From Channallabes apus (Eukaryota > Chordata > Actinopteri > Siluriformes > Clariidae): 64,000 nucleotides of DNA. Made by a program: the position numbers and the translations under genes. How positions within the stretch are numbered: position 1 is the first letter of the stretch; every line of letters begins with the position of its first letter. The stretch lies in assembly GCA_030522415.1 (NCBI GenBank), contig CM060126.1, positions 10,049,352 to 10,113,351 on the forward strand, given 5' to 3'. The notes beneath the pieces were generated by a model. The model was not told where the DNA came from. It did no database searches and saw only the letters and a program-made list of their open reading frames with translations. Of this stretch, positions 1-64,000 are shown in pieces.

Positions 1-1330
1 TGCTGCATAGGGAACTTCCTGCTATTCTACAGCACTCAAATGCATTCCTCTTTCACCTCCGCAACAAAACGAACCCAGCTTTATTTGAAACTACTTAAAC
101 CTTCATGACTCCTGCTGACGCGGCTCAAACGCCAGATGGGATCTAGTGCTCCGGTTTCACTGAGATCCGTCAGTGGGCTGATGAATTTAGAATTTTGAAG
201 TAGGTACTGTACAAACGTACAATAATATACTGCCAGCCCAGGAAGTGTGTCACCACCATCTTTTCTATAATTGCTACCGTCTTAATGCGGATCTTAAGTG
301 GATTTTATTTTAGCTCGGTGCTGTCGACTCCAACAGGATTTCAGGACACATGTACTGCATAGGCATGCACTGTTGGCGAATCATTACTGTTATATAATTA
401 ATATCATTAATATTCAGGGAAGCAATTCTTCTCCCTGATAAGAAAAAACGACACACCACTGAAATAGTGATTAACCAGGCTGGCTATTTAGGATTCAGTA
501 ATTAATATAGTGCTGACCTGTCAGTAACAAGCAATCATGCATAAAATGTTGTTGTTATTATTATTATTTAATAAAATGTGTATTTTTTTATGCGTATTTG
601 TTTCCTAATACATGCCATTTGGTGAATAAAATTATTCCCAGTCTACTTCCGTTATAACCTTAAATGCGCAGTGGAGAGTGATCTGAAAATGCCAACTAAA
701 GCATGACGAATCATTGTAAACCAAACAGTGTTGTGAGTGTTGTGGACTTTTCGAGGTAAATGATCTGCCAGTAGTGGCTGATGAAATCCAATGCTGGATA
801 AAACCAAGCTGTGCCTAGCTTTTCAAATAGCGAGTCAATAAACATATAGATACATCAGATTTCACAAACACATTGTGTGAGCACAAGCACAATGTGAGTT
901 TTTCGATCAACGTGCAGTTCCTCTATTACTCTCATCCACAGAATTTCGTGCAAATCACCCTGAACCACTTTTCATTTGTGTTCAGGTAACAGATATGGCT
1001 GGCAGTGGACAAACACATCACGGGCGGTCTCGAAGTCCTTATGATGTCAGGTCATCCAGGCAGGGAAGCAAACACATTCAATAACACAGCTTGCGAATAG
1101 GAAACTCAGACCGAACTCTCTCACTCTCATCACTGTCACCAGGGCCTAAGGAAGCACCTCACTTCATTTTAAGAAAGTTGAAGTTGTTATTCTGACATGT
1201 CTCCCCTGTCCGTTTGAATCAACTCACAGTTGACTTCCCAGACTAGCATTGCGACAGTGATGTCTGATTTGTGAATGAATATAAACCAGTATGACACTAG
1301 ACTTGTACAATAGTTTGTTTAGGGGTTTAA
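1..1330. other. gene-free AT-rich DNA
   Basis: No reading frame resembling a known protein and no structured RNA was seen. The stretch is AT-rich and looks like old intergenic DNA. One TACTGTA heptamer lies at 205-211. Confidence 0.6.
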
Positions 1331-1839
1331 GGACGCTTGCTATGCTAATAGGTTTTATTAGCCTATGACAATATAAACATATACTGTGCTGTATATACAC
1401 TACCGTTCAAAAGTTTGGGGTCACTTTCTAACTCCTTGATCGTTCTTGATTTTTGTTTCTTTCTACATTGTAAAGGAATGCTGGAGGCGTCCAAAAATGG
1501 ATTAATCTCCTTTGGACAGTTGATAATGAGATTATCTTTCTGCTCTGTAAAGACTTCATAACGCCTCTAATCTGAGGTGCTGTTAATTGGTCATTTTTCA
1601 GGCTGATAACTCTAAATGAACTTCTCGTCTGCGGCAGAGGTAGGTTTTGGTCTCGCCCTCCTGGGACGGCCTTCATGAAGAGCCAGTTTCATTATGGTGC
1701 TTGACGGATTTTGCAAATGCACTTGACATATATATATATATATGCTTATAGTCTATTAGCTATGTTTATAGTCTATAAGCCTATTAGCTTAGCAAGCATT
1801 ATATTGTCATAGGATAATAAAGCCTATTAGCAAGCATCC
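1331..1839. repeat. inverted repeat flanking a Tc1 fragment
   Basis: About 45 bases at 1331-1375 recur inverted at 1800-1839. Both arms contain 'cttgct..taatagg.tttatta..ctatgacaatata'. They enclose the Tc1 derivative at 1401-1728 and a short (TA)n run. The arms may be remains of a foldback element that took in the Tc1 copy. Confidence 0.6.
1401..1728 (-). mobile_element. internally deleted Tc1-type element (MITE-like)
   Basis: On the minus strand this encodes the second helix-turn-helix part of a Tc1 transposase (residues such as 'LTAPQIRGV' and 'LSTVQRRL', the latter a Tc1 signature). It then jumps directly to sequence like a Tc1 3' end ('acaatgtagaaa...aaaagtttggggtcac' in reverse orientation). 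The DDE catalytic domain is missing. The copy at 37690-37985 appears to carry the same junction, so this looks like a non-autonomous subfamily and not two chance deletions. Confidence 0.6.
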
Positions 1840-3784: not shown

Positions 3785-5209
3785 ACACATCCTGTTATAA
3801 GAACAACCTTTTCATGCAAAAACATTTTTATTATTCTTCCATGGCATTAATGTGCTTATATATTTTTAAAAAATTATTAGACTGATAAGTTCATTACTCT
3901 GTGGACGAATGCACCCTACTGTATTAGGCCACACATTTTTATTGTGAGACGGTATTGGGCGGGGCTACAAAACCTTTTAACATTGGGGTCTAACAGCAGG
4001 TTAATGTGGCACTGAATGTAGACTTGTGTTTCTGACAGAATTGAAACTCTTAATGAAAATGAGGGGAAAAAAATATTGTGTATAACACATGCAATTAGTT
4101 CAGTGTTTGCAAGTTCACACTTCATGAAAGTTAGCTGAAAGTTCAGTTTACACATATTCAAATTTAATAGCTCAGGTACATAGTTTATAGTCCTAAAAAA
4201 TTAACTACTGTAGTTCACGTTTATTCCTTCTTTTTTGTAGCAAACTGTACTGCGCAGGGAAAAAAGCATATTTCTTTAAGTAGTATCTTCTTCTTTCATT
4301 ATATCCAAACCCACTTGCACTGGCCAAACTGGCAAATGCATTCATACAGTAAATACTGTACATACATACGTACATACCATGCTGGAAGTACTGTAGCTTT
4401 GTTTTTAGTGCACTCAGACCTGCCAGAGACAGCTGATTATTTCCAGCACATACTGTACAGCACATGTGTGATCAGTCAAAATATCTGATCAATATTTACT
4501 TCTGTATTCTGGCTGCAATGATTTCTTGTCAGTTTGATACTGCAACCAACGTTAATAGCACTTCACAAAGATAGTTTTTTTCCCTATCTTTGCTAAACAA
4601 AACAGCTACAAACAACTGCCAACGTGTCATGAGCAGGCAGAATAATGATAATATAATCCATTCACATCAAAGCGCCTCTTTGCATAAACACTTACAGCAT
4701 GTTACGTTTACACACATACACACGATGCACTTTCAGAGGGTGAATAGTAATTTATTTTACCATTTTAAGCGATGTGTTGAAAAACACAGGAATTATAGTT
4801 AATTAAATAATAATAATAATAATAATAAATAAGTAAAAAAACAATTTTTTTAATTCTGAATCACTCTCTCATCCCTTTCAATTATTTTATTCCCCAGATT
4901 TGCATTTCAACTACAACTTAATGTGGCTATGTTCTCCTTAACTTGCTTAAGAAACAAAGCACAACTACCTGTAAGCACCAGTTTCTGATGAACTCGATGA
5001 CAATGACTGATTAGATGGAATTTAGGCACACGGTCTTGATTCCAAAATTTCAAATGAAAAAAGCCAAACGTCTCAGAAACAAGCCCCAAGTTTGTTCACC
5101 CACCCAAACCACAATCTAAATCGAAACCTCCCAATGAGGCACAAAACTGCCCAAACTGGCAACACCGTAGTGAGGATACAGATTCTATTAAATTTGAATA
5201 TGATCAATA
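1840..5209. other. gene-free DNA with microsatellites
   Basis: No gene is seen. There are (GT)n runs near 1845-1867 and 3466-3487, a (TTA)n run at 3750-3785, and short A-rich runs near 2938-2957 and 4805-4830. TACAGTA/TACTGTA heptamers are frequent, for example 1840, 1873, 2419, 3918, 4204, 4345, 4353, 4389 and 4450 (approximate). Small ORFs here have no recognisable similarity. Confidence 0.5.
3750..3785. repeat. (TTA)n microsatellite
   Basis: An uninterrupted trinucleotide run of roughly eleven units. The short tyrosine-run ORF over it is only the translated repeat. Confidence 0.9.
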
Positions 5210-6055
5210 TTAGAAATTTAAGTCCAATGCCAATTAATGTTCAGCGATCAGATTTTCAGTCTAGGTTGAAAATCTATTTATTTAGACAAGCCTTTTGTAA
5301 ATAGATTCGTCTTAGGTAAAGGTGCACATCTGGAGGACTGATGGACATAGAGTATTATGGTGGTATGTTTGGATGCTGTCTTCCCCCACTCTCACTAAAT
5401 ATTCAGGTTTGCTGACAGCATAACTAAAAGGGAGAGCCAGAAGGAAACATAAACATAAGGGGTCCCTGGGATGTAAAGTCAGTTCACTGTCATAGCTAGT
5501 CCTGCTGGAATCCCTGCTTGCACTCTGCACTAAATATACATTGACCTTATACATTATGTGCCAGTGACCATACATACCTGTCCTCTCTCTCAGCCGGAGC
5601 TACACATGGCTACCTCTGGATCTGTCTGATTTATCTCGGTGCCGCATTTCCAGTTGGAGATCTTGTCACTTGGAGGCCTTGTATGCTCTGCTTGGGATGT
5701 ATGTGGTGACTTGACCATGAAGATGGTCTTGGACTCGGGTGATGCAGACAGCTGTTCTCTGATGACTGCAGTCGCTCAATAGTTCACGCCTGAAATTCCA
5801 TAAGCAGTTTAGTACCAGAGCCTGTTAACTGTTAACACTTTTCCTCTTATACTGAACTTCTAGCTTTCTAACACACGGTATGATGGCAAAAGCTTCCACT
5901 TGCTCATCAGTGATCAGTGATAATTTTGATTTATACTGTACATATTTCCTCACTCATTTAAAACTCTTTTTTTTATTTTGTAAGGCTGCATTGCTACAAT
6001 GACCATTGTTGAAAGCACTATATAAATAAAACTGAATAGAATAGAATTGAACAAA
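5210..6055 (+). mobile_element. 3' end of an old LINE (RT C-terminus plus 3' UTR)
   Basis: The 5' part encodes 'FQSRLKIYLFRQAF', typical of the C-terminus of LINE reverse transcriptases in fish, ending with a stop near 5304. The rest resembles a LINE 3' UTR. It ends in the familiar pattern 'ctgcattg.tacaatg.ccattgttgaaagcactatataaataaaa' followed by degenerate GAATAGAATAGAATTGA repeats near 6030-6052. Part of it (about 5405-5470) recurs at 23360-23405. I assign an I/Nimb-like LINE from general resemblance; the clade is uncertain. Confidence 0.55.
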
Positions 6056-6851
6056 GCCTTTGCTGCTCACGCTCATGACACCCTCCTTCTTTACTTTAAT
6101 GAACCCCTGCTCTTTTAGTGCATTCATGCACAACACTTGTAATCAGTGATATTTTTTACAAGATTTACTGTAAGGATCTAACAGGCTTGGAGAACACTTG
6201 CAGAGCGATTTTCTGAACATAAAATAACACAGTATTCAAGTTCTTAATCTCCAATTCATTTGACAGGTTTTCAATAGGTTACAAAATTGAGAGTGAACTA
6301 GTCATTGCAAGGAATCGATTTTGTGTTTACACAAACTAATACCAATCTCGTTTTCTAAATACGTCATAAAAAAAAGAATGGAAGTTTCTCCATTTGGATC
6401 AGTCATCAAAATAATTTTTTATTATAAATCCCATGACTGAAATGTTGTCCCTGTTGGACCCTTGAGCAAGGCCCTCAACTGCTCACATGTATAATGAAAT
6501 ACAAATGTATTTGTATACAGCAAATGTCCAAGTCCTACTTGACTTGTGTAATGTGCTCAAAGATATTCCAACAGAAATCAGCTGCAGTCCTCTCTTTATT
6601 TTTTTTTTACTCTGCATATGCAGACAGGCAGTCCCACTACATACAATAAATAAGAAGCAGGCCAGCCAAATGGCTCATATTTCCCTAGTGCATGTACAGA
6701 TTGCTTAAACAGATTCCATTTCCAGCCTAAAACAAATGAGAGGGCATTAGTGCGTCTTAATTGCAGCTCTACATTATGTTCATTGTAGTTTGTTCAGAAC
6801 ACCAAGTTGCCAAGTGGGCAAAAAAAAATTAACTGGCAGAGCAAAAAAGAC
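6056..6851. other. gene-free DNA with a SINE/LINE tail scrap
   Basis: No gene. Around 6450-6485 the string 'cccttgagcaaggccctcaactgctc' resembles the common 3' segment of fish SINE/L2-type repeats and also occurs, diverged, near 31775-31815. Confidence 0.4.
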
Positions 6852-7244: not shown

Positions 7245-9992
7245 TTAGTCCTGTGTGGAGGTGTGATTGAGAGACCTTATCGCCTGCGGGAAGAAGCTCC
7301 TCCTCAGTCTCTCTGTGTTGGCCTTTAGGGAGCGGAATCTCTTCCCAGACCGCAACAAAGAGAACAGTCCATTACTGGGGTGACTGAGGTCCTTCATGAT
7401 CTTCCTGGCCTTAGTCCAGCACCGCTTGCTGTAGATGGAGTGCAGGTCAGGGAGCTCAGTGCGGATGATGCGCTCGGCTGATCGCACCACCCTCTGTAGA
7501 GCTCGTCTGTCCTGCATGGTGCTGTTCCCGAACCAGGTCGTGATGTTTCCCGTCAGGATGCTCTCTATGGTGCAGGAGTAGAAGTTCCTGAGCACCTTGG
7601 AGGGCAGTCTAAAGTCTCTCAAGCGTCTGAGGTGGTAGAGACGCTGCCGGGCTTTTTTCACCACGGTGTTGATGTGACAGGACCATGATAGGTCCTGCGT
7701 GATGTGAACACCGAGGTATCTGAAGCTGTCCACTCTCTCCACTGGGCTCCTGTTGATGACGGGGGTCTGGTAGTTCCTCTCCTGCTTTGTACTGAAGTCC
7801 ACTATCAGCTCCTTTGTCTTACTGACGTTCAGGAGGAGATTGTTCCTCTGGCACCAGTTCTCCAGATTTCCAATCTCCTCTAGGTAGTCCGACTCATCAT
7901 TGTTGGTGATCAGTCCGACCACGACGATGTCGTCAGCAAACTTGATGATGGAGGTGGAGTTGGTAGTGGCCACGCAGTCGTGGGTGTACAAAGAGTACAG
8001 CAGGGGGCTCAGAACACAACCCTGGGGGGCTCCAGTGCTGAGAGTGAGTGTGGCTGAGACATGTCCGCCCATCCTTACTGCCTGTGGTCTGCCAGTCAGA
8101 AAATTGGAGATCCACTGACATATAGATGAGCTCAGTCCCAGGTGCTCCAGCTTGGTGGTGAGTGTGGAAGGAATTATTGTGTTAAAAGCAGAGCTGTAGT
8201 CGATGAAGAGCATTTTAACATAATTCCCTTTCCTAGTGTCCAGGTGAGTGAGTGATGTGTGGAGGAGATGAGAGATTGCATCGTCTGTGGAGCGGTTCTG
8301 ACGGTATGCAAACTGTAGTGGGTCCAGTGTGTCGGGTAGTGAAGAAATGATGAAGTCTCTGATAAGGCGTTCAAAGCACTTCATCACTACTGAGGTGAGA
8401 GCTACAGGGCGATAGTCATTGAGAGAAGCAGGATGTGGTTTCTTTGGAACAGGAACAATAATGGACTCTTTGAAGCATGTGGGGATCACCGACTGAGATA
8501 AAGAGATGTTGAATATCTCAGTGAACACAGGTGCTAGCTGGTCTGCGCAGGCTCTGAGAATACGACCTGAGATGCCGTCTGGTCCTGCTGCTTTCCTGGT
8601 GTTCACTCTCTTGAAGGCTCTCCTCACGTCGTGCTCGGAGATGATGAGCGCGTTCCCGGTGCTGACTGTGTCTTCCTGTCTGCAGCCGTTAGCGCTGCTA
8701 GCATTAGCGCCGTTAGCATTAGCGCCGTTAGCATTAGCATTGCTAGCGTCTTTAGCTGCAGCCTCGAAGCGAGCGTAAAATGTGTTCAGCTCGTCTGCCA
8801 GAGTCGCGTCCGCGTTCGTCATACCGGATGTTGGTGCTTTATAGTCCGTTATTGTTCTCAGTCCCTGCCACAGGTTCCTAGAGTCACTCTGTTGAAGCTG
8901 TGACTCTAGTTTTCTCCCGTAGCGCTGCTTCGCCTCTTTCACCGCCTTCCGGACGTTATATGACGCAGCCTTGTACGGTTCCATGTCCCCCGATGCAAGT
9001 CCCGTGTTGTAGGCAGCTGTGCGAGATCTCAGAGCGTCGCAGATGGTTTTATCCACCCACGGCTTCTGGTTGGGAAACGTTCTGATAGTCTTTTTCTCTA
9101 CCGTATCGTCTGTCAGCTTTTCAATAAATCCCACAACCGCTTCCGTAAACACGCTGACGTCATCATCGGAGCTGTTTCTAAACATGTCCCAGTCTGCGTC
9201 ATCGAGTGCGTCCTGTAACGCGGCCACCGATTGGTCCGTCCAGCGCGCGACCTCCCTCAGGACCGGAACTTCCTGTTTCAGCCTTTGTTTATATTTTGGC
9301 ATGAGGAAAATGGCGGCGTGGTCGGATTTACCAAACGCTGGACGAGATTGTGCCTTGTAACCGTCTTTGACCGTGGTATAACAATGGTCCAGTGTCCTTT
9401 CGCCCCTGGTGGGGCAGGTGATGTGCTGATAAAAGTTCGGCGCTGCGCGTTTGAGGTTGGCACTATTAAAATCCCCCGCCACAATGAGCGCAGCGTCCCG
9501 GTGTTGTGTCTGGTGCTGTGTGAGCGCCTCATGCAGCTCGCATAAGGCAGTTTCAGTGTCCGCTTGTGGAGGTATGTAAACGGCGCTGATTATGACCGAT
9601 GTGAACTCCCGTGGAAGATAAAATGGACGACACATGATGGACAGTAGTTCCAGGTTTGGTGTGCAGGAGCGTGTAAGAGGAACAACGCTCGCGCTGTTGC
9701 ACCAGCTGTTGTTCACCATTAAGCACACGCCGCCTCCCCTTGACTTCCCCGAGTCCCGCGTCCTGTCCATGCGGTGAACCGAGAAGAACTCGGCCGGCTG
9801 TATGGCGTGGTCTGGCACCGCTGGGTTCAGCCATGTCTCGGTGAAGCAGAGGAGATTGCAGTCCCGAATGTCTCTCTGGAACTTTATCCTGGCCCTGAGG
9901 TCATCCAGTTTGTTCTCCAGTGACTGGACGTTGGCGAGCAGGATGCTAGGCAGAGGTGTGCGGTGTGCACGGGCTCGGAGCCGGTTCCTCAC
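7245..9992 (-). CDS. LINE ORF2: endonuclease-reverse transcriptase
   Basis: The 915-codon frame has no internal stop. The N-terminal third is an apurinic-type endonuclease: 'LLANVQSLENK' near residue 18, 'CFTETWL' near 50, 'GDFN' near 171 and the catalytic 'SDH' near 221. A low-complexity Asn/Ala/Gly stretch ('NANGANANGAN') near residue 425 comes from a short DNA repeat. The RT domain follows, with 'AGPDGI' near 467, 'GAPQGCVLSPLL' near 655 and the active-site 'FADD' near 685, then a C-terminal tail. This protein nicks the target and reverse-transcribes the element RNA at the nick. The listed start is a GTG; the frame stays open upstream to about 10100, so the real start is unknown and no separate ORF1 protein was recognised. 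With all key motifs present the copy could be active. Confidence 0.88.
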   Translation of the reverse strand: MRNRLRARAHRTPLPSILLANVQSLENKLDDLRARIKFQRDIRDCNLLCFTETWLNPAVPDHAIQPAEFFSVHRMDRTRDSGKSRGGGVCLMVNNSWCNSASVVPLTRSCTPNLELLSIMCRPFYLPREFTSVIISAVYIPPQADTETALCELHEALTQHQTQHRDAALIVAGDFNSANLKRAAPNFYQHITCPTRGERTLDHCYTTVKDGYKAQSRPAFGKSDHAAIFLMPKYKQRLKQEVPVLREVARWTDQSVAALQDALDDADWDMFRNSSDDDVSVFTEAVVGFIEKLTDDTVEKKTIRTFPNQKPWVDKTICDALRSRTAAYNTGLASGDMEPYKAASYNVRKAVKEAKQRYGRKLESQLQQSDSRNLWQGLRTITDYKAPTSGMTNADATLADELNTFYARFEAAAKDASNANANGANANGANASSANGCRQEDTVSTGNALIISEHDVRRAFKRVNTRKAAGPDGISGRILRACADQLAPVFTEIFNISLSQSVIPTCFKESIIVPVPKKPHPASLNDYRPVALTSVVMKCFERLIRDFIISSLPDTLDPLQFAYRQNRSTDDAISHLLHTSLTHLDTRKGNYVKMLFIDYSSAFNTIIPSTLTTKLEHLGLSSSICQWISNFLTGRPQAVRMGGHVSATLTLSTGAPQGCVLSPLLYSLYTHDCVATTNSTSIIKFADDIVVVGLITNNDESDYLEEIGNLENWCQRNNLLLNVSKTKELIVDFSTKQERNYQTPVINRSPVERVDSFRYLGVHITQDLSWSCHINTVVKKARQRLYHLRRLRDFRLPSKVLRNFYSCTIESILTGNITTWFGNSTMQDRRALQRVVRSAERIIRTELPDLHSIYSKRCWTKARKIMKDLSHPSNGLFSLLRSGKRFRSLKANTERLRRSFFPQAIRSLNHTSTQD

Positions 9993-10253
9993 GCCAGCTC
10001 GTTTCCCTCGGGTTCGTCGCTTCGCGTCGCGTCCATTGTTCTCCCTCAGGATCTCACTCGGCCAGCTCGGATCCGGAGTTAAAACCGTCGAATTGTGAGT
10101 ACATTGTATACCAATAGAAACAAGAGTGTCTCTATCATACCTAATGTACTCAATGGTGGTGATTTTGCCGATTTTAAAACACTGAAAGCTAACTTAAAAA
10201 ACAAAAACAAAGAAAAGGTGGTCGGAGCAGTCGTGACGGCAGCCGACCTCACC

Positions 10254-10266: not shown

Positions 10267-11040
10267 AATCCCCACAATGTGCAATTAGCCCCTTTCAGAT
10301 AATTTTGAAATAATAATGTCTGTTTAAGCACAGTTTATCTGTAATCTAGAACTGTTGGCCTAGTGTTAATGCAAAAAAATTATTAGTTAGTTAGAGCCGG
10401 GGTGGACGTGTGCAGGGCATTGTAATCAAGCTGTTCGTGGCATAGAGTGAGAGGAATAACCAGGGATAAAGAGAGAGGATGTCTGTGTTTGTGAGGTTGG
10501 CTACTGTATACAGGTATGTACAAGCTAGAAGAAAGAGAGAGAGCGATAGAGAGATAGAGAGAGAGAGAGAGAGATCTACACTAAAATAAACAACTGCACC
10601 TCTGATCATTAATGCGATTATCCAGCAACCAGCTGAGTAATGCACACAGTAATTTAGATATAAGTCAAGGGCTGATAAAGTTCACATCCAGCTTCAGCAT
10701 ATGGAAAAATATGATTTCAGTGTGAGACAGGTTTGGTTATTTCAGAGACCTGCTGACCTCACATAGGTGCGAGAAAGAAAAACACCTGTGAGCTGTTAGT
10801 GGAAACTGTCAAAGCCAGACTAATTCAAGTTGGCAGGAAGGTTATTGTAACGTAAATACCCACTATTCACAACAGCGGTGAGTATAAAAGCAGCTCTAAA
10901 TGCACAAACAACACTCCAAACCTTGAGGAAGATGGACTACAACAACAGGAGACAACTTGAGTATCTACTCTGAAAATCTCACCAAGAAACTGGACAGCTG
11001 AAGAGGGGAAAAACATTCTGATATTTTTGCATGGATGAGA
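10267..11040. other. gene-free DNA with a (GA)n run
   Basis: No gene. An imperfect GA/GATA microsatellite lies at about 10530-10575. No further structure was seen. Confidence 0.5.
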
Positions 11041-11205: not shown

Positions 11206-11255
11206 TTCCAGTAAAGATACAGTATGACTAGTATCTGGTGAAGGTGGCCTTGGAG

Positions 11256-11815: not shown

Positions 11816-12020
11816 TGGCAGTCATTAGACACTTTATTAATCTAATATAATCTAATCTAAGGGAGGAACAATTAGCTCCTTGGTTCATTTACTGCCTCAA
11901 ATTATATGCTTTGTCACGTAACAGAGTTTTATAGCAAATGGAAAATGTATTTTAAACTATCTACACATATGTAAATTAAACTGGCTATTTACAGTATACT
12001 GTAAATATATTGTAAATATA

Positions 12021-12350
12021 CAGAGGTGTCAAGTAACGAAGTACAAATACTTCGTTACCTTACTTAAGTAGAAATTTTGGGTATCTATACTTTACTGGAG
12101 TAATTATTTTTCAGCCGACTTTTTACTTCTACTCCTTACATTTTTAAGCAGTTATCTGTACAGTACTTTCTACTCCTTACATTTAAAAAATAGCCTCGTT
12201 ACTCCTATTTTTATGATGAGAACGCGCAACCCCAACCCATGCCATCCCCCCCACCCCACCCCCCCGTCGCATGATAAGAACGCGCACAAACACTGTACAG
12301 TCACGTCATTAGCAGTGTGTGGATACAGGAGACGAACCAGTAATGGTGCG
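12021..12350. mobile_element. hAT-type MITE fragment (CAGAGGTGTCAAGTAACG end)
   Basis: It begins CAGAGGTGTCAAGTAACGAA and continues with 'tacaaatacttcgttacctta', a pattern widely seen as the end of non-autonomous hAT elements in fish. No matching right end was found, so it is truncated. At 12160-12166 the sequence 'ctgTACAGTActt' stands where I remember the family reading 'ctgTActt'; this comparison rests on memory. Confidence 0.5.
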
Positions 12351-39129: not shown

Positions 39130-39130
39130 G

Positions 39131-48303: not shown

Positions 48304-48353
48304 CCTCGGTCAGGTGACGTCATCTGATTAGATGCAGGTGGAGGTTATAAATA
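48304..48353 (+). promoter_or_regulatory. putative DIRS promoter (17-bp motif plus TATA box)
   Basis: CCTCGGTCAGGTGACGT at 48304-48320 (extended by CA to a full CRE, TGACGTCA) is followed by TATAAATA at 48346-48353. The 17 bases are identical to the motif in all four LTRs of the compact LTR elements. Confidence 0.6.
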
Positions 48354-49480: not shown

Positions 49481-49840
49481 TTTTTTTTTGGACCCGGGCA
49501 CCTCACGATGCTTCACAACCGGCAACTGGACAAAATGGTTCCCATAGCGTTTTCACGCAGCATCTCGTTCCTGCCTTTCAGGGAACAGGGTTACAGCAAA
49601 GTAACCCGAGACGTTTCTCTTGTTAGAGTCCTTTGAGCAGCAGTTAGTCTTTTGTAAATAAAAATAGTATATTTTCAGGAACTTTTATGTATTATAATAT
49701 ATAATTATATACAGTAACAATTATTATTGATTGCTGGCTCCATTCGTCTGATCATAATGAGGAAGAATTATATAAGCTTGTGTTCTCAGCTTCTTGGTGC
49801 CCATTTGCTTTTTATTTTATTTACATGAAAACACTCATCA

Positions 49841-50146
49841 GGCTCGATTCCCGTCTCTGTGTGCATGGAGTTTGCATGTTCTCCCCGTGCTTGGTGGGTT
49901 TCCTCCGGGTACTCCGGTTTCCTCCCACAGTCCAAAGACATGTAGGTTAGGTTAATTGACATTCCAAATTGCCCGTAGTGTGTGATTGAGTGTGTGTATG
50001 TGAGTATGTATGTGTGCCCTGCGATGGATTGGCACCCTGTCCAGGGTGTACCCCGCCTTGTGCCCTAAGTTTCCTGGGATAGGCTCCAGGCCCCCGCGAC
50101 CCTGTATATAAGGATAAAGCGGTACAGAAAATGAATGAATGAATGA
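49841..50146 (+). mobile_element. 5'-truncated SINE
   Basis: Same family as 24702-25089 but lacking most of the tRNA-like head. It starts 'ggctcgattcccgtctctgtg' and ends in (ATGA)n. A 16-bp duplication ATGAAAACACTCATCA flanks it (49825-49840 and 50147-50162), showing LINE-type target-primed insertion. Confidence 0.9.
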
Positions 50147-50228
50147 ATGAAAACACTCATCATGCACGTGAAGATAGTAAAAAGCAAAAGCAGTAGTGGA
50201 TTAAGGACTACTTTAGCCAAAACCACCA

Positions 50229-52640: not shown

Positions 52641-53914
52641 CAATGTATCGCCAAAAATAAGTAAAATAAAGATTTGTTTCAAGGAGCTTCAGAAACTTGA
52701 AATCAGGGCTGTGCCCGGGTGAAAATCCAAATGATAACCCTTAGGATAACCGGAAAGTTTCAGAACATATTATAGGAAAGGAGGGGAAGAGACAGAGATG
52801 AAGTTATCCTTCATGGGATACCCTATCCCAAGGAACACGAAGCAGGAGGATACACCATGGATGGGATGCAAGTCCATTGCAGGACAATCAGTTGATGATG
52901 ATAGAGAATGATGTTTGAGGCAGCAAAGGGGACTATGAATATGTAGGGGTTTCAGCAAACTGAACATGATATTATTGGATAGCACATGTGAGAGTGGTTA
53001 CAGCTGATGCACTTACTCCAGCACTGCAGTGTAATGCATTATTACCAAAGAAAATAAAGTACACTAATTGGGAATAAACACCTCATAAGTGCAATCAAAC
53101 ACTGATTACATTGCCTGTTTAAATATGTAAAATATTGTATATGCAAGAATTACACGTGTTAGCATTACACACATGAATTTCTATCCCGCCTCCCATCTCA
53201 TACATACACACACAACATGCAGGGCACAAATAGTTTGACTAGTAATTTGTCATGTTTCATGGTATAAATGTCTTCTATGAGCAGACCAATAAGCTTCTTC
53301 TGTTTTCGTCTGTTTTTCCCATTCTAAATACTCTTCTGCTACATTTCTCCACAAGCCTTCTGCTCTCCATCATCGGCATTGAGCAATTAGATGCAGACTT
53401 CTATCTCTTGCAAATATATTTTAAGATAAATTGCCATGCATGAATCAAATAGTGTGACTCCAGGCATCCCTGTGAGCAAATGGCACATGATTCAATGAAA
53501 CAGAACTGTAATTACAAGAAAATGGGTGGTTCACACTGCAATGGTTGGTTCAGTCACACTTCTCCTGCTGATAGCTAATTTGTTGAAATATGTTCCGAGG
53601 GGTGAGTGGAGAAAGAAACAGATGGCATCACTTAAGTGTTACAAATGGTGGAGGTGTCAAATGATTGAGATTTAATTTACCAAAACATCAACAGGTTTAA
53701 GGACTATCAGTATTATGCAAAATGAAAAATTGCAAAGCATGTCTATTTCTTCAATAAGATTTAAACTCTATTTGCTTAAATTGACAAAACCTACTTTGAA
53801 AGGACACAAAAATGCAAATTTTATGTTTATATAAATATCTTTTAACTTTACTTTTTTTAACCTTATTTTTAATCACTTGTGTGTTCCTCTACCTCAGGTA
53901 AAAGTACTTATATA
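52641..53914. other. gene-free DNA
   Basis: No gene or recognisable repeat; small ORFs such as 52770-52985 (minus) and 53252-53443 (plus) match nothing. Confidence 0.45.
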
Positions 53915-55528
53915 CAGTGGTGTGAAAAACTATTTGCCCCCTTCCTGATTTCTTATTCTTTTGCATGTTTGTCACACTTAAATGTTTCTGCTCATCAAAA
54001 ACCGTTAACTATTAGTCAAAGATACCATAATTGAACACAAAATGCAGTTTTTAAATGAAGGTTTACGTTATTAAGGGAGAAAAAAAACTCCAAATCTACA
54101 TGGCCCTGTGTGAAAAAGTGATTGCCCCCCTTGTTAAAAAATAACTTAACTGTGGTTTATCACACCTGAGTTCAATTTCTGTAGTCACCCCCAGGCCTGA
54201 TTACTGCCACACCTGTTTCAATCAAGAAATCACTTAAATAGGAGCTACCTGACACAGAGAAGTAGACCAAAAGCACCTCAAAAGCTAGACATCATGCCAA
54301 GATCCAAAGAAATTCAGGAACAAATGAGAACAAAAGTAATTGAGATCTATCAGTCTGGTAAAGGTTATAAAGCCATTTCTAAAGCTTTGGGACTCCAGCG
54401 AACCACAGTGAGAGCCATTATCCACAAATGGCAAAAACATGGAACAGTGGTGAACCTTCCCAGGAGTGGCCGGCCGACCAAAATTACCCCAAGAGCGCAG
54501 AGACGACTCATCCGAGAGGCCACAAAAGACCCCAGGACAACATCTAAAGAACTGCAGGCCTCACTTGCCTCAATTAAGGTCAGTATTCACGACTCCACCA
54601 TAAGAAAGAGACTGGGCAAAAACGGCCTGCATGGCAGATTTCCAAGGCGCAAATCACTTTTAAGCAAAAAGAACATTAAAGCTCATCTCAATTTTGCTAA
54701 AAAACATCTCAATGATTGCCAAGACTTTTGGGAAAATACCTTGTGGACCGACGAGACAAAAGTTGAACTTTTTGGAAGGTGCGTGTCCCGTTACATCTGG
54801 CGTAAAAGTAACACAGCATTTCAGAAAAAGAACATCATACCAACAGTAAAATATGGTGGTGGTAGTGTGATGGTCTGGGGTTGTTTTGCTGCTTCAGGAC
54901 CTGGAAGGCTTGCTGTGATAGATGGAACCATGAATTCTACTGTCTACCAAAAAATCCTGAAGGAGAATGTCCGGCTATCTGTTCGTCAACTCAAGCTGAA
55001 GCGATCTTGGGTGCTGCAGCAGGACAATGACCCAAAACACACCAGCAAATCCACCTCTGAATGGCTGAAGAAAAACAAAATGAAGACTTTGGAGTGGCCT
55101 AGTCAAAGTCCTGACCTGAATCCTATTGAGATGTTGTGGCATGACCTTAAAAAGGCGGTTCATGCTAGAAAACCCTCAAATAAAGCTGAATTACAACAAT
55201 TCTGCAAAGATGAGTGGGCCAAAATTCCTCCAGAGCGCTGTAAAAGACTCGTTGCAAGTTATCGCAAACGCTTGATTGCAGTTATTGCTGCTAAGGGTGG
55301 CCCAACCAGTTATTAGGTTCAAATTACTTTTTCACACAGGGCCATGTAGGTTTGGATTTTTTTTCTCCCTAAATAATAAAACCCCTCATTTAAAAACTGC
55401 ATTTTGTGTTTACTTGTGTTATCTTTGACTAATAGTTAAATGTGTTTGATGATCAGAAACATTTTGTGTGACAAACATGCAAAAGAATAAGAAATCAGGA
55501 GGGGGGCAAATAGTTTTTCACACCACTG
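53915..55528 (+). mobile_element. complete, apparently intact Tc1 transposon
   Basis: 1,614 bp flanked by TA. Terminal inverted repeats of about 210 bp start CAGTGGTGTGAAAAACTATT at both ends and differ at few positions. Each has an outer and an inner copy of a GTGTGAAAAA-type direct repeat (for example 'ccctgtgtgaaaaag' near 54106), the IR/DR layout of Sleeping Beauty-like elements. Decayed relatives are at 12351 and 37340. The near-identical ends and open transposase indicate a young insertion. Confidence 0.95.
54294..55316 (+). CDS. Tc1 transposase, DD34E, intact
   Basis: 340 codons, the usual Tc1 length. It has a paired-like DNA-binding domain: the first helix-turn-helix is around 'YKAISKALGLQRTTVRAII' (residues 30-48), a GRPR-like 'SGRPTKI' near 60, and a second helix-turn-helix up to about 110 with a basic 'FPRRK'. 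The catalytic residues are Asp153 ('WTDET'), Asp244 ('QQDNDPKH') and Glu279 ('NPIEMLW'), with the 34-residue spacing of this group and a glycine-rich 'YGGGSVMVWG'. It ends 'AAKGGPTSY'. The enzyme would cut the element out at its ends and insert it at TA. No stop or frameshift was seen, so activity is possible. Confidence 0.95.
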   Translation: MPRSKEIQEQMRTKVIEIYQSGKGYKAISKALGLQRTTVRAIIHKWQKHGTVVNLPRSGRPTKITPRAQRRLIREATKDPRTTSKELQASLASIKVSIHDSTIRKRLGKNGLHGRFPRRKSLLSKKNIKAHLNFAKKHLNDCQDFWENTLWTDETKVELFGRCVSRYIWRKSNTAFQKKNIIPTVKYGGGSVMVWGCFAASGPGRLAVIDGTMNSTVYQKILKENVRLSVRQLKLKRSWVLQQDNDPKHTSKSTSEWLKKNKMKTLEWPSQSPDLNPIEMLWHDLKKAVHARKPSNKAELQQFCKDEWAKIPPERCKRLVASYRKRLIAVIAAKGGPTSY

Positions 55529-56617
55529 TATGTATTATAATTGTACTTATAAAAAAAAAGTACTTATAAATAATTTACTTCTTTCTTTCTTTACTTATTT
55601 TTAGGTTTACAGTAAAGTTGCATACAGTAACTAATAATTTTACAACCTATTTGATCAATGTGTTGGCCTTGAGGTTTAGTGTCTTGCAGGGAACATCGTG
55701 TACAAAATTATTTATTGAATGTTTTTTTCACACATTTTTGATGGATACAAAATCTATATATAAAAAAGGGATTATATCACTCATTCACTGCGCCTACCTT
55801 ATTTGTGTTGAATAATTAGTGTCTCAACAATGTACACAGCGGCACTGATGAAATAAAAAGCCACACTGTCTGCCTCGTTGGCTATCTACAGGAGACCGTA
55901 TTTTTGTAGATATAATGGCTTAATAAACCGCAAGCTTTGGGTTACGGTTTTTGTCATTAGAATGATAAAGAACAGTCACTAAAATGGGGACATTAAATAA
56001 AAATAAAAAAATTAGCGTACCGTGCTGCAGCTCAGTTAAATAACCCTGTCCAGTCATTCCAAATTACACTTTGTTCCTCGGTCATATTAAGCCATAATGA
56101 AACAACAAACTCAGCATCTCATCACTTCATACAACAATCTCTTAAACAATAAGCTGCAGAGATGAACTTTTCAGTGATGTATCAAAATAAAACAAAGAGT
56201 ACATGATTCATTTTGTTTATAACATTCTGTGAAATAGACACAGTCCAGCATATAACTATACAGTATACTGTAAATACATTTATATTTATTTCCTTCTAAC
56301 AAAGTTTGCCTTAAAGATCATTGTATTTCTTGTTTCTTGTTAAAAAGAAAAAAAAATAATATCAATTGTGCTGTTATTTATTATTTATTCTATTCCTATT
56401 TTTCATAGTCTTTCATTAATGAAAACAATAGTGAATAGCTTAACAACTGCACATATACAGTAGACCTCTTAGTTTATTTAAACAATGTACAACTGACACT
56501 GCACTACCTTACAGTGGTGTGACAACCAGACTGCTCATTACCGTCGCACTCACCGCCGTGGAAACGCGGCAGCGGCCGAAATAAACCAGGAGCATTTCAA
56601 AATAATTCGTGAAATGA
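55529..56617. other. gene-free AT-rich DNA
   Basis: No gene. TACAGTA/TACTGTA heptamers near 55608, 55623, 56262, 56269 and 56457; those at 56262-56275 form TACAGTATACTGTA. Confidence 0.45.
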
Positions 56618-56755: not shown

Positions 56756-57952
56756 TGTAAAACTATAAATATAAAAAATATGAGTTAGAAAACATTGGTT
56801 TTATTTTGTTTAGACAGACTCTCTGTTTTTATCTGTTTAGTGTTATTATTAAAGAAAACAGCGCAAACAACAGCACTAGGGCTTTCAAAAAAATTATTTC
56901 GACAATACTTACAGTTGTTAGAGTTTAAGACATCAAGATTTAAATATAGAAATAACTAAAACAAATAGAGCAAACTTCCAGAATAGATAATAAAAAATAA
57001 ATCAATAAAAAAGATGTATGCAGTATAATCGGGGCCTCTCATTACATTATATTTTGGTTCAGTGCCAGACGAAGTGCGAGCTAATATTGTCTTACATTTG
57101 TGAATAAAATATCATTGTTTTATTCAGAGATTTACAGTATTTGTGCAAAATAATAGTTATGACATAATTAAATATAAATATAATTACAGGCTCTGGATTC
57201 GTTTTTCGTTTGCAGTATAAAACCAAAATACATCTTACTATTTTTGAGAGATTCGTCGTAAAAAAAACTATTTTTTTTTTTCAGATATTTGTCTGTACAA
57301 AATAATATTTATGCAATATAATCACGGGCTCTTGATTCGTTATTCGTTTGCAATATAAACCAAAATACATTAACCATATAATATAAACCAAAATATAAAC
57401 CAAAATATTTAATTTGCTGTATTAAATATTTATGCCGTCTCATCAAGGATCCAAAGATTGCCTTGTACTAAATAATATTTTTGCTGATTTTTTTCTGCGA
57501 TTCAGTTGTGTGATGTTTTAATGATGAATGATGTTTTACTGTATGTTTACTGTATATAAAAAAAAATATGAGTTAGAAAACATTGGTTTTATTTTGTTTA
57601 GACAGACTCTCTGTTTTTTGGAATTTTGGAATCCACAGACGCAAAAGAACATGATAATAATAATCAAAAGAATAATATTAATCTTTTTGCTGTTTATTTC
57701 CACCATTTAATAATGTTTTAATTATCAATAATTAAAGCTGCTCGTGTCGGCTCATATCGGGAGCATTTTTTATGAAAGATAAACAAACAGCTGTGTGTGA
57801 ATGGAAAAGAGTGCGCTTTGCCGAGTTTTGATCTACTGTAAAGTCAGATGATCACATTTAAACAATTTATTCATACAGATGTACCTGTTTTACATGGAAA
57901 GTTACAGGTTTGGGCTACTGTTATCTACTTCAAATATTTGAAGTTAAAAGCT
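56756..57952. repeat. diverged leading copies of the tandem array
   Basis: 'tatgagttagaaaacattggttttattttgtttagacagactctctg' occurs at about 56780-56826 and again at about 57568-57614. 57190-57440 is a diverged copy of the start of the 1.83-kb unit. No coding content. Confidence 0.75.
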
Positions 57953-58680
57953 AAAACTTGAAGATTTGAAGCTAAAACTTCAGCCCTTTTCATATTTTCC
58001 CCGTGGTCGTTATTAAAAAATATATATAAATAAAAGTTTTGCCTTCCAAGGCAACAGATTATGGAGCTTCTTGAGCTGCTCAGACCTGCGCGTGCGTCGT
58101 ACTTACACTCCCCGTCCCGATGTCCAGCTGCTCGCTGCTTTTTGTTTAAAATATGTTTCATTCATCATTAGCCATTATCCATAACTTTATGGGTTTTTCT
58201 TTTGACACGTTTTATTTTTATGAAATTTGATTTAGTTAAATGAGAAAATAACCATGGGAGTTTCAAACCCCGCATCCATTCATGTTTCTGTGTGATTGTA
58301 ATGTTTAATACCCCTACAGTATTCACTTACTGTATGCGGTTTGACTCGCTGTGAGATGCGGTGTGTTATACCCCTATCGCACCTGCTCGGTCTCGCGCTG
58401 TGACCGTAGGCTTGATCATGATTCACCCCGAGTCTTTGCGCTGTGATTACGTTTCCATGCTTCCGCGTGAAAAATTCCGCGAAGATCTTCCGCATGTTAA
58501 ACATGTTTATTTTTTTGCGTGGTAAGATGGAAACGTAATAACAGCACCAAAACTCGCACCGAATCATAATGAACCGCACTTATGGCCCCGCGTGTGAGAT
58601 AGATGTATTAAACCTCCACTCTGTCATCTCATCGTATTCATTCCATAAGTGCGCTATACAACCAGTGTGTAAGTGTGTAA
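57953..58680 (-). mobile_element. second copy of the 23.6-25.7 kb TIR element, ends missing
   Basis: It aligns in reverse with about 24000-25290, including 'gcagcgagcagctggacatcgggacg', but lacks both terminal repeats. It has no SINE at the position where the first copy carries one. Confidence 0.85.
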
Positions 58681-58857
58681 GTGTGTACAAACAACAGCAC
58701 AATGCATGTATGAATGGCTGAAACGTTAAGTCAGATGAACGCGCGCGCCGATATGAGAGATTAGATCTTTCAGCACGCCGATGTCAGTCACTAGCAAAGA
58801 GCATTTACTGATCACATTTAAACAATTTATTCATACAGATGTACATGTTTTATAGGT
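58681..58857. repeat. partial array unit
   Basis: Holds 'gtcagatgaacgcgcgcgccgatatgagagattagatctttcagcacgcc', which recurs near 60243, 62078 and 62727 and, partly, 63378. Confidence 0.8.
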
Positions 58858-60690
58858 CGTTTTTCGTTTGCAGTATGAAACCAAAATACATCTTACTATT
58901 TTTGAGAGATTTGCTTTTAAAAAAATCTAAAAAATAAATAAATAAAAATTCAGATATTTGTCTGTACAAAATAATATTTATGCAATATAATCACAGGCTC
59001 TTGATTCGTTATTCGTTTGCAATATAAACCAAAATACATTAACCATATAATATAAACCAAAATATAAACCAAAATATTTAATTTGCTGTATTAAATATTT
59101 ATGCCGTCTCATCAAACTCGCAACTCACTCCGAAGAGCATCCTTCTCTGCCTTGCAAACTCCCAACTCACTTGAAATTTAATATCGTATATAATATTTAA
59201 TATTGGCATAATATCCCTGCCCCAATTCTAACAGCTGTACAGTATGAGTTGAAATAATAACAGTAGTGTTTTTCTTTACTGAATAGGCAGAGCCTCTGAA
59301 TAGGCGGAGCCGTTGATGTCTTTTGTTTCGGCTGTGAGTGGATGCGCTGTAGTAATCCACGTTTTATACAAATTACATAAACTTTTTTCAGTCATGATAT
59401 ACTAACATATATTTCAGTCATGATTTCAGTCATGATATACTAACATATTTTTCGCCGTGTAGTGCGCGCGCAACATCTAAAGGGCGAGCGTTCACACAGC
59501 TGACCAAATCGTCATTCTGCGTGCCCCTCCCCCAAACAGCGCAGCGAGGAGCATTTACCTGTTAAACAGGTTTTACAGGTGTGCTTTGCAAAGTCAGACA
59601 CATACAAATGCAAATGATACTGAATAGCTGTTCTCACCTACAGTATACACTCGGAGAAACTAGAATGAGCAAGAATGAGATTTTTCTTACCATAACATGT
59701 AGTGTTATTAATCACTCTACACTGTTTTTAATTACTTTTAATTTTATTTATAAATAAACAAACCAAATAAAATTATTCCATGTGTATTTACCCTTTGTAA
59801 AATAGCATTAAAAATGATGGGTCGTGTATCGAGTGATTAAAAAACAATACAAGGCACGTTATGATAAGGAACCTTTCTACAGTACAGTATCTCTTCCATT
59901 TCAGTGATTAAAAAACGGTAAAAATGTCAATTTTGGAATCCACAGACGCTCAAACAGCAAAAGAACATGATAATAATAATCAAAATAATATTATTATTCT
60001 TTTTGCTTTTTATGTCCACCATTTAATAATGATTTAATTATCAATAATTAAAGCTGCTCACATCGCGCGCTTTCACTTTAAAAATGCAGTGTTTAATCAG
60101 CAAGTATATGTCGCCTCTCTTTATGATTGATAAATATTCTGACTGAAACAAATCTGCTCGTGTCGGATTGTTCATTTTTTATGAAAGAGGAGGGGAAACG
60201 TTTGCATGATCCTGCGTGTGCGCCTTTAACTTTGATCTAAAGTCAGATGAACGCGCGCGCCGATATGAGAGATTAGATCTTTCAGCACGCCGATGTCAGT
60301 CCCTATAGCAAGGAGCATTTACTTATATCTAAACAAAATCACTGATCACATTTAAACAATTTATTCATACAGATGTACATGTTTTATAGGTTTGTTACTG
60401 AAGAACTGTGGCAGCGGGCACACCTAAAAATAAACGCAGGATTATTATTTTTTTAATAGTTTTATATAAATAAAAAATGCTTTTATAAATGTGGGCTGTT
60501 ATCTACAGTACTTCAGTACTTATATTTCACATCTGTGAGGCGAGTATACACGGAGTTTGGGTTCATTTTCTGACGCGCTCAAGTTCACCGAAAACAATAC
60601 AGAACCCCGTTTAGTGTAATTTATTTCATTTAATAAATCTACTACAAATTTAAAGAACACAAAATATAAGATGACACAAGACCCTGGATT
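58858..60690. repeat. 1.83-kb tandem unit A
   Basis: 1,833 bp, starting 'cgtttttcgtttgcagtatgaaaccaaaatac'. It is followed directly by an almost identical unit B; by eye only around ten differences, mostly one or two bases in simple runs. No protein is recognisable; the 60-65-codon ORFs are repeated only because the DNA is. Confidence 0.92.
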
Positions 60691-62525
60691 CGTTTTTCGT
60701 TTGCAGTATGAAACCAAAATACATCTTACTATTTTTGAGAGATTTGTTTTAAAAAAAAATCTAAAAAATAAATAAATAAAAATTCAGATATTTGTCTGTA
60801 CAAAATAATATTTATGCAATATAATCACAGGCTCTTGATTCGTTATTCGTTTGCAATATAAACCAAAATACATTAACCATATAATATAAACCAAAATATA
60901 AACCAAAATATTTAATTTGCTGTATTAAATATTTATGCCGTCTCATCAAACTCGCAACTCACTCCGAAGAGCATCCTTCTCTGCCTTGCAAACTCCCAAC
61001 TCACTTGAAATTTAATATCGTATATAATATTTAATATTGGCATAATATCCCTGCCCCAATTCTAACAGCTGTACAGTATGAGTTGAAATAATAACAGTAG
61101 TGTTTTTCTTTACTGAATAGGCAGAGCCTCTGAATAGGCAGAGCCGTTGATGTCTTTTGTTTCGGCTGTGAGTGGATGCGCTGTAGTAATCCACGTTTTA
61201 TACAAATTACATAAACTTTTTTCAGTCATGATATACTAACATATATTTCAGTCATGATTTCAGTCATGATATACTAACATATTTTTCGCCGTGTAGTGCG
61301 CGCGCAACATCTAAAGGGCGAGCGTTCACACAGCTGACCAAATCGTCATTAGCGTGCCCCTCCCCCAAACAGCGCAGCGAGGAGCATTTACCTGTTAAAC
61401 AGGTTTTACAGGTGTGCTTTGCAAAGTCAGACACATACAAATGCAAATGATACTGAATAGCTGTTCTCACCTACAGTATACACTCGGAGAAACTAGAATG
61501 AGCAAGAATGAGATTTTTCTTACCATAACATGTAGTGTTATTAATCACTCTACACTGTTTTTAATTACTTTTAATTTTATTTATAAATAAACAAACCAAA
61601 TAAAATTATTCCATGTGTATTTACCCTTTGTAAAATAGCATTAAAAATGATGGGTCGTGTATCGAGTGATTAAAAAACAATACAAGGCACGTTATGATAA
61701 GGAACCTTTCTACAGTACAGTATCTCTTCCATTTCAGTGATTAAAAAACGGTAAAAATGTCAATTTTGGAATCCACAGACGCTCAAACAGCAAAAGAACA
61801 TGATAATAATAATCAAAATAATATTATTATTCTTTTTGCTTTTTATGTCCACCATTTAATAATGATTTAATTATCAATAATTAAAGCTGCTCACATCGCG
61901 CGCTTTCACTTTAAAAATGCAGTGTTTAATCAGCAAGTATATGTCGCCTCTCTTTATGATTGATAAATATTCTGACTGAAACAAATCTGCTCGTGTCGGA
62001 TTGTTCATTTTTTATGAAAGAGGAGGGGAAACGTTTGCATGATCCTGCGTGTGCGCCTTTAACTTTGATCTAAAGTCAGATGAACGCGCGCGCGCCGATA
62101 TGAGAGATTAGATCTTTCAGCACGCCGATGTCAGTCCCTATAGCAAGGAGCATTTACTTATATCTAAACAAAATCACTGATCACATTTAAACAATTTATT
62201 CATACAGATGTACATGTTTTATAGGTTTGTTACTGAAGAACTGTGGCAGCGGGCACACCTAAAAATAAACGCAGGATTATTATTTTTTTTATAGTTTTAT
62301 ATAAATAAAAAATGCTTTTATAAATGTGGGCTGTTATCTACAGTACTTCAGTACTTATATTTCACGTCTGTGAGGCGAGTATACACGGAGTTTGGGTTCA
62401 TTTTCTGACGCGCTCAAGTTCACCGAAAACAATACAGAACCCCGTTTAGTGTAATTTATTTCATTTAATAAATCTACTACAAATTTAAAGAACACAAAAT
62501 ATAAGATGACACAAGACCCTGGATT
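60691..62525. repeat. 1.83-kb tandem unit B
   Basis: 1,835 bp. Examples of differences from unit A: 'tcattctgcg' versus 'tcattagcg', one more CG in a (CG)n run near 62090, and 'cacatctgtg' versus 'cacgtctgtg'. The near identity means a very recent duplication, or an assembly artefact. Confidence 0.92.
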
Positions 62526-64000
62526 CGTTTTTCGTTTGCAGTATAAAACCAAAATACATCTTACTATTTTTGAGAGATTTGTTTTAAAAAAAAATCTAAA
62601 AAATAAATAAATAAAAATTCAGATATTTGTCTGTACAAAATAATATTTATGCAATATAATCACAGGCTCTTGATTCGTTATGATTGCCCCAATTCTAACA
62701 GCTGTACAGTATGAATTGAAATAATAAGTCAGATGAACGCGCGCGCCGATATGAGAGATTAGATCTTTCAGCACGCCGATGTCAGTCACTACAGTAGCAA
62801 GGAGCATTTACTGATCACATTTAAACAATTTATTCATACAGATGTACATGTTTTATAGGTTTGTTACTGAAGAACTATGGCAGCGGGCACACCTAAAAAT
62901 AAACGCAGGATTATTTTTTTATATAGTTTTATATAAATAAAAAATGTTTTTATAAATGTGGGCTACTGTTATCTACTTCAAATATTTGTTAAACAGGCTG
63001 GAAACTCACTCTGACCATTTTAATAATTCATTGATAAGATCGTGATTCCTTTGGTTATGGCTGTGCTGATCATGTCATCTCGTCGTCAGTGAGCGCGCCT
63101 ATACAGTAATTCACTTCTCATACGAATTACATAATCTAATATTTTTTTTTTCATTAGTTTATATTAAAGCAGATATTTCTCTTTCTATAAGTATATATTT
63201 TTCACATCTGTGAGGCGAGTATACACGGAGTTTGGGTTCATTTTCTGACGCGCTCAAGTTCACCAAAATCAATACAGAACCCCGTTTACTTTATTTATTT
63301 AACAAAATCATAAAGTTTTTTCGTCATTGTGAGTGCACCTAAATAAAAGTAGAGTCTTTGCCGAGTTTTGATCTAAAGTCAGATGAACGCGCGCGCCGAT
63401 ATGAGAGATTAGATATCTCTTTCAGCAAACACATATTAATGGTGTTAAATAAGCGCTATGCGGCGCTGGGAGAAACGCACGCCGATGTCAGTCCCTAGCA
63501 TTTACTTACATCTAAACTGAGTCATTTACATAAATCACTGATCACATTTAAACAATTTATTCATACAGATGTACATGTTTTATAGGTTTGTTACTGAAGA
63601 ACTTTGGCAGCGGGCACACCTAATAATAAATGCCGGATTATTATTATTATTTTTATTTATAGTTTTATATAAATAAAAATGCTTTTATAAATGTGGGCTA
63701 CTGTTATCTACTTCAAATATTTGTTAAAACAGCGGGGGAAATTCACTCTGACCATTTTAATAATTCATTGATAAGGTAGTGATTCCTTTGGCTGTGCTGA
63801 TCATGTCATCTCGTCGTCAGTGAGCGCGCCTATAATTCACTTCTCATACGAATGACATAATCTAATTTTTTTTTTCATTAGTTTATATTAAAGCAGATAT
63901 TTCTCTTTCTATAAGTATATATTTTTCACGTCTGTGAGGCGAGTATACACGGAGCTTGGGTTCATTTTCTGACGCACCAAAATCAATACAGAACCCCGTT
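62526..64000. repeat. rearranged partial array units with a 735-bp sub-repeat
   Basis: A third unit begins at 62526 but jumps near 62682 and 62727 to later parts of the unit. A newer period of about 735 bp appears: 'cactctgaccattttaataattcattgataag' near 63008 and 63743, and 'gtgaggcgagtatacacggag' near 63211 and 63932. The array runs off the window end. Confidence 0.85.

Follow-up and report, generated by a model that had tools for sequence, protein, structure and literature searches.

Dense TACAGTA and TACTGTA heptamers in the genome of Channallabes apus look like a fossil record of Tc1-type transposon excision

Introduction

Why should a stretch of catfish DNA be strewn with two seven-letter words, TACAGTA and TACTGTA (together, TACWGTA), and what put them there? 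The question is raised by a 64,000-nucleotide stretch of contig CM060126.1 of Channallabes apus (the whole of which is termed the window herein). A sequence-only reading of this stretch had reported about 85 such heptamers throughout its older DNA, some at sites where a related copy has only TA, and had proposed that they are the footprints of Tc1/Sleeping Beauty-type transposon excision. We find that most of these heptamers were very probably left behind by the excision of cut-and-paste transposons of the Tc1/Sleeping Beauty type. The available text of PMC3432063 agrees with the proposal in giving TAC(A/T)GTA as the typical Sleeping Beauty footprint, and footprints are equated in the accessible part of PMC7827188 with the 3' overhangs left by excision, which end joining seals.

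In the mechanism envisaged, an element with CAG...CTG ends would insert at a TA, which is duplicated, and transposase would later excise it, with three end bases (CAG or CTG) staying at the empty site. End joining, presumably in the germline, would then close the broken site as TA-CWG-TA, which exceeds the initial TA by 5 bp. Each heptamer site would once have held a full transposon, and the repetition of such cycles by numerous families and copies, probably through a long period, could have generated the approximately 0.9 million footprints above background that we estimate for this 1.16-Gb genome.

Results

The window contains exactly 85 heptamers, 47 TACAGTA and 38 TACTGTA, as the sequence-only reading had counted. 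Dinucleotide-preserving shuffles (n = 100) gave a mean of 8.7 (standard deviation, 3.0; maximum, 18), and none of the 100 attained 85. Markov models fitted to the window predicted 12.4 heptamers at order 2, 15.8 at order 3, 27.6 at order 4, and 61 at order 5, the last two values being high because high-order models contain much of the heptamer itself. The excess over background composition thus survives the order-2 and order-3 models; the AT content, put earlier at about 62%, was measured as 59.7%. Some 9 to 16 of the 85 heptamers are expected by chance and are indistinguishable from the rest, and since five recur in a tandem duplicate, no more than 80 can count as independent.

The excess extends across the genome (1,164,683,209 bases in 93 contigs), which was sampled as 25 arbitrary 10-kb loci from contigs 1 to 20, with 245,512 non-N bases. 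These loci held 233 heptamers, or 0.95 per kb; the lowest count for any locus was 1, where 4,488 of the bases were N, and the highest was 22. In the first 20 loci, 192 were observed and 35.9 expected at order 2. Extrapolation from the 25 loci gives about 1.1 million heptamers genome-wide, from which the 0.9 million footprints above derive by subtraction of background. Together, the window and the 25 loci contained 318 heptamers in 309,512 non-N bases, 289 of them outside tandem repeats (0.99 per kb). The mouse genome is about 2.7 Gb in size. In the accessible text on mouse screens (PMC4378557), the two heptamers are placed at over 300,000 positions in that genome. This corresponds to about 0.11 per kb, a single yardstick and not a controlled comparison. 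The density in C. apus is roughly ninefold higher and is unusual; the mechanism is a known one. No report of such a heptamer density was found among the listed titles and opening lines of abstracts from the open-access literature.

The heptamer also stands out among comparable words in the window and 20 loci, where 277 copies were present among 18,237 TA and about 58 were expected. CAG ranked first of the 32 strand-merged TA-NNN-TA classes (277 occurrences), followed by AAA (187). When 7-mers seen at least 40 times were ranked by their excess over an order-3 model, TACAGTA/TACTGTA (277 observed, 57.7 expected) came seventh among strand pairs, behind six simple repeats; further down came minisatellite words of the window and one unexplained word, GACAGCG. 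Separately, the order-3 model for the window and L009-L028 left mild, unexplained excesses of TACAATA (83 observed, 57 expected) and TACATTA (85 observed, 65 expected), as well as of TACCGTA/TACGGTA (11 observed, 5.7 expected).

Comparison of homologous copies revealed what distinguishes a site with the heptamer from one without it. Nine of the pairs named in the sequence-only reading were re-aligned, and each showed the expected difference in length between the short form and the heptamer. The TACAGTA at 62790-62796 has TA near 58792 as its counterpart, and apart from the heptamer the 131 aligned bases differ at a single position; with copies so nearly identical, this footprint is recent relative to their split. 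TACAGTA at 60504-60510 corresponds to TA near 62974, 63709, and 57926 (the last in a short alignment of 39 columns), TACAGTA at 62339-62345 to TA near 62974, TACTGTA at 58328-58334 to TA near 24526 (minus strand), and TACTGTA at 24481-24487 to TA near 58375, the heptamer form being longer by exactly 5 bp in each case. Two adjacent TACAGTA at 43865-43878 replace TATA near 31679 on the minus strand and are 10 bp longer, in an alignment of 63 columns. For the pair with TA near 63833 the 5-bp difference is real, and the heptamer, a TACAGTA given earlier as 63112-63118, lies at 63102-63108. Further TACAGTA copies behave alike: that at 12159-12165 exceeds its homologs in L001 and L017 by 5 bp, that at 23668-23674 is 5 bp longer than its homolog in L008, and those at 15682-15688 and 24440-24446 have TA in L014 and in both L008 and L017, respectively. 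In an all-against-all comparison of the sampled DNA, a stricter run gave 25 five-bp gap records, 15 of which set TACWGTA against a short form (14 distinct heptamers), and a laxer run with more loci gave 48, 16 of which did so (15 distinct heptamers); the short form had TA in all but four of these 16. The original observation is thereby confirmed in its count, its excess, and its 5-bp paired differences.

The direction of change was resolved in one repeat family, a short interspersed element (SINE)-like family with 47 matches in the window and loci (10,215 bp; 10.5% substitutions from the consensus). Its 378-base consensus contains 15 TA and no heptamer, and three of the four five-bp insertions relative to it are the heptamer, in two copies (two in L027 and one in L024); the copies hold five heptamers in total, two of which were not placed as five-bp insertions. 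At three single sites, one heptamer copy stands against several insertion-free alignments: 11 at L027 7953, 7 at L024 3810, and 4 at L027 8098. Because the consensus lacks the heptamer and most of the insertions consist of it, the heptamer is the derived state in this family, the one tested in this way, and the single sites are supportive. The sequence-only reading had allowed that family consensus sequences might contain the heptamer ancestrally; the one consensus built does not. The family is abundant, with members in the window at 24662-25105 and 49837-50160, and its head is presumably tRNA-derived. Carriage of the heptamer by a single repeat family was considered and rejected, as there were 266 distinct flank pairs among the 277 occurrences and the consensus is free of it.

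What speaks most strongly, in our view, for selection of the heptamer sites by a Tc1-type transposase is the symmetric signature of their flanks. A is elevated at position -3, a pyrimidine at -2, and a purine at -1 (A-Y-R), and the pattern is mirrored on the other side. Outside tandem repeats, and with duplicates and nested cases removed, A-Y-R was found at 93 of 456 heptamer flanks (20%) versus 194 of 2460 (8%) at other TANNNTA (p = 6.7e-14) and 2499 of 34,698 at all TA (p = 2e-19). The ends of five resident inverted-repeat elements, searched in the window and loci, yielded 14 ends at 9 places, 13 of them with TA, and 10 of these 13 were the query elements' own ends. A occupied position -3 in 12 of the 13 (background, 0.335; p = 1.8e-5) and A-Y-R was present in 6 of the 13 (background, 0.093; p = 6e-4), so that heptamer flanks and resident ends share the A at -3 of the target preference. 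According to the available portions of PMC3271037 and PMC7913693, Sleeping Beauty and ZB prefer a palindromic AT-repeat target around TA; agreement with the C. apus signature lies in the outer A and the symmetry. Core orientation was even, with 116 CAG and 112 CTG.

Heptamers also occur within one another. In the window, TACAGTACTGTA at 31489-31500 comprises two heptamers with a common TA, and TACAGTACAGTA, likewise two heptamers, is nested at 59878-59889 and again at 61711-61722. Genome-wide, with each word read backwards as its control, the direct form TACAGTACAGTA was counted 9191 times on one strand and 9183 times on the other (controls, 474 and 419), the inverted form TACAGTACTGTA 4564 times (control, 169; 27-fold), and the inverted form TACTGTACAGTA 6478 times (control, 146; 44-fold). 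Inverted nested forms are what arises when a further element inserts at, and is excised from, a TA of an existing footprint.

Aligned pairs suggest that footprint indels accumulate over time. Across 674 pairs of up to 30% divergence, their frequency per kb was 0.13 at 0-3% divergence and then 0.22, 0.28, 0.47, 0.40, and, at 20-30%, 0.13. Between 3 and 16% divergence there was one footprint indel per about 240 to 350 substitutions, and over all bins 44 per 21,495 substitutions, or one per 490. Many pairs involve the same few copies and are not independent, so that these values suggest accumulation and do not establish a clock. The claim that the heptamers sit in older DNA is weakly supported by three young elements of the window, a long interspersed element (LINE)-type frame, a Ty3-type retrotransposon, and a Tc1, which together hold 354 of 4623 TA and 1 of 85 heptamers (p = 0.02); that sole heptamer is the TACTGTA at 41270-41276.

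The Tc1 is complete. It occupies 53913-55530 on the plus strand, including its flanking TA duplications, and has terminal inverted repeats with the end sequence TACAGTGGTGTGAAAAA; the two ends of the element match throughout their outer 20 bases, CAGTGGTGTGAAAAACTATT. An uninterrupted open reading frame at 54294-55316 (plus strand) encodes a predicted Tc1/Sleeping Beauty-type transposase of 340 residues with helix-turn-helix and DDE domains (HTH_SB, HTH_Tnp_Tc3_2, and DDE_3; PF25787, PF01498, and PF13358). Counted by eye, 34 residues separate the first D of DNDPKH from the E of NPIE, which we take to fit the DD34E motif rule. The ends of this Tc1 and of the other four query elements all begin with CAG, partly by construction, since the scan sought only ends beginning with CAG or CAC. 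As any CAG-ended family leaves the same scar, the footprints are not assignable to a family.

The remaining heptamers are spread along the window, as read from the sequence count with no strand assigned. TACTGTA lies at 205-211, 1873-1879, 2420-2426, 3917-3923, 4206-4212, 4354-4360, 4389-4395, 4451-4457, 5934-5940, 6166-6172, 10502-10508, 13164-13170, 13585-13591, 14674-14680, 17456-17462, 19922-19928, 19953-19959, 21269-21275, 22498-22504, 26702-26708, 26749-26755, 27006-27012, 31503-31509, 36913-36919, 44797-44803, 45456-45462, 50316-50322, 50528-50534, 52009-52015, 57537-57543, 57548-57554, and 57834-57840. The corresponding TACAGTA are at 1840-1846, 4345-4351, 11218-11224, 13812-13818, 16694-16700, 16835-16841, 19809-19815, 19822-19828, 23169-23175, 25486-25492, 27192-27198, 27664-27670, 36169-36175, 36885-36891, 37437-37443, 47181-47187, 48026-48032, 49710-49716, 50942-50948, 50973-50979, 55608-55614, 55623-55629, 56456-56462, 57133-57139, 58315-58321, and 62705-62711, and TACAGTA directly adjoins TACTGTA at 11990-12003 and at 56259-56272 (two heptamers each). 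A tandem duplication at 58857-62681 (about 1.83 kb; 99.4% identity) has five heptamer sites in common: the five at 59238-60504 recur at 61072-62339, with TACAGTA at 59238-59244 matched by 61072-61078, TACAGTA at 59639-59645 by 61472-61478, the nested pair at 59878-59889 by that at 61711-61722, and the TACAGTA beginning at 60504 by that at 62339.

Several other elements were observed. The LINE-type open frame at 7245-10193 (minus strand) encodes 982 residues with endonuclease and reverse transcriptase domains, and the Ty3-type retrotransposon at 38756-43778 has direct repeats of about 375 bp (96% identity) with separate pieces matching gag, reverse transcriptase, RNase H, integrase, and chromodomain families. 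Two related GC-rich units, at 28020-30543 and 33450-35487, are each flanked by a pair of almost identical direct repeats, about 355 bp long (98.6% and 99.2%), and contain 27-, 30-, and 69-bp tandem arrays; the two long frames scanned had no Pfam match, and the units are possibly a non-autonomous long terminal repeat-type element with internal minisatellites. An element-like segment at 48211-49564 has perfect 57-bp inverted repeats 1240 bp apart, and a 170-residue frame overlapping it had no Pfam match. A 472-bp inverted-repeat segment at 27091-27562, with ends CAGGGTGGGT and CAGGATGGGT between TA dinucleotides, is possibly a small non-autonomous element. Rfam at gathering thresholds gave no match in the window. 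Outside the window, a (CA/TG)n array at L013 760-1140 includes many TACTGTA and TACTGTG units, in which footprints and repeat expansion seem to be mixed.

Discussion

The symmetric target signature, the A at -3 of resident ends, the 116:112 orientation, and the inverted nesting support excision by Tc1-type transposases, and the unknown CWGTA-inserting process that the sequence-only reading had offered as an alternative is not needed. A nearer competitor is abortive transposase action, in which CWGTA is left at a TA without a resident transposon, or in which very short elements with CAG ends insert and leave again. Such action would be expected to produce the same target signature, and it would suit the disparity between 318 heptamers and the 14 ends at 9 places retrieved with five query elements. 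Yet the heptamer is the published product of ordinary excision, as far as the accessible portions of PMC3432063 and PMC7827188 report; a modest number of copies, by jumping repeatedly, could in principle be enough, and the end search, with queries from five elements, would pass over CAG-ended families that are older or unrelated. We consider abortive action improbable.

Slippage, by which the heptamers would be an (ACAGT)n pentanucleotide microsatellite or lie within simple repeats, is still less probable. The preponderance of direct nesting and the heptamer-rich (CA)n array in L013 would fit it, but tandem repeats account for few of the heptamers (289 of 318 are outside them), single heptamers stand in place of TA between homologous copies, and the inverted nested forms, at 27 and 44 times their controls, are of a kind that slippage does not make. 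That abundance excludes simple slippage as the main source, and slippage could supply part of the direct forms. Least credible of all, and extremely unlikely in our judgment, is an ancestral heptamer in repeat families, from which the short forms would have arisen by deletion of 5 bp. The five heptamers common to the tandem duplicates do indicate that some are inherited with a copy. Against this origin stand the heptamer-free consensus of the 47-match family and the identity of its insertions, the lone heptamers faced by 11, 7, and 4 short alignments, and a symmetric target signature that deletion would not produce.

Several observations weigh against excision footprints as the explanation. 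The order-4 model leaves only an approximately threefold excess (85 versus 27.6). Five-bp gaps form no clear spike in number: gaps of 5, 4, and 6 bp numbered 48, 40, and 42 in the laxer run and 25, 16, and 26 in the stricter one, so that the signal resides in the content of the gaps. In the four exceptional records of the laxer run (L023 849, L024 3810, L027 7953, and L027 8098) the short copies have TG or TT, requiring an earlier substitution or a target other than TA. Flank trimers were enriched 3.6-fold for ACA, 3.0-fold for ATG, and 1.6-fold for ATA; with ACA and ATG above ATA, the published ATATATAT does not by itself describe the signature, which in this respect differs from the target preference of ZB. 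Direct nesting is commoner than either inverted form, which points to some added tandem duplication or other bias; slippage after nesting is one possible source of the surplus. One-mismatch neighbors of the heptamer showed no overall excess (about -15, with TACTGTA left out) against a background model that is itself contaminated by footprints, and a halo of decayed old footprints is accordingly not visible. The 20-30% divergence bin fell to 4 footprint indels in 32 kb, with no further rise, and in the single genome covered no allele was seen with a transposon still at a footprint site. These points apart, the genome data fit the sequence-level consequences of Sleeping Beauty excision, insofar as these are set out in the available texts.

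The Sleeping Beauty footprint, in the portions of PMC3432063 and PMC4378557 available, is the same heptamer, with TA on both sides and a CAG/CTG core; there it is known from engineered-transposon experiments, whereas here it occurs about once per kb of a natural genome. ZB of zebrafish shares Tc1-type cut and paste at TA and a palindromic target preference, and the resident element here, like fish Tc1-like elements, carries HTH_SB and DDE_3; the accessible text on ZB (PMC7913693) gives the length of its footprints, as assayed in cells, as 0 to 3 bp and includes no genome-wide tally. Natural excisions of DNA transposons were likewise counted by sequence comparison in rice, where the available part of PMC4423477 lists 94, mostly with deletions or filler and 8 perfect, in contrast to the very numerous clean canonical footprints of C. 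apus. The heptamer test recognizes clean canonical footprints, and messy excisions are invisible to it. As far as its accessible text goes, a catfish repeat paper (PMC5953449) uses "transposon footprints" once, for Tc1 sequence generally, and lacks the word excision; the terms footprint, excision, and CAG were sought in PMC7731502 and none was present.

Tallies of cut-and-paste transposons usually rest on the copies still in place, and the departures of these elements are hard to detect. With scars at about 1 per kb that match Tc1-type excision, this genome appears to hold a densely filled fossil record of earlier transposon movement. It is plausible, if somewhat short of probable, that Tc1 excision is a continuing and approximately clock-like mutational process in this vertebrate lineage, leaving very roughly one 5-bp footprint per 300 substitutions (at 3-16% divergence) and having marked on the order of 1% of TA. 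If so, TA/TACWGTA differences between individuals should number in the thousands, and from the footprints the traffic of transposons could be read back without reliance on the copies that survive. A scar recognizable in sequence would make excision countable genome-wide, with a rate relative to substitutions, and its tally would show the extent of short-insertion mutation attributable to a single transposon superfamily. Many 5-bp indels in such a genome would then not be ordinary replication errors, which would affect alignment, indel models, and the annotation of frameshifts.

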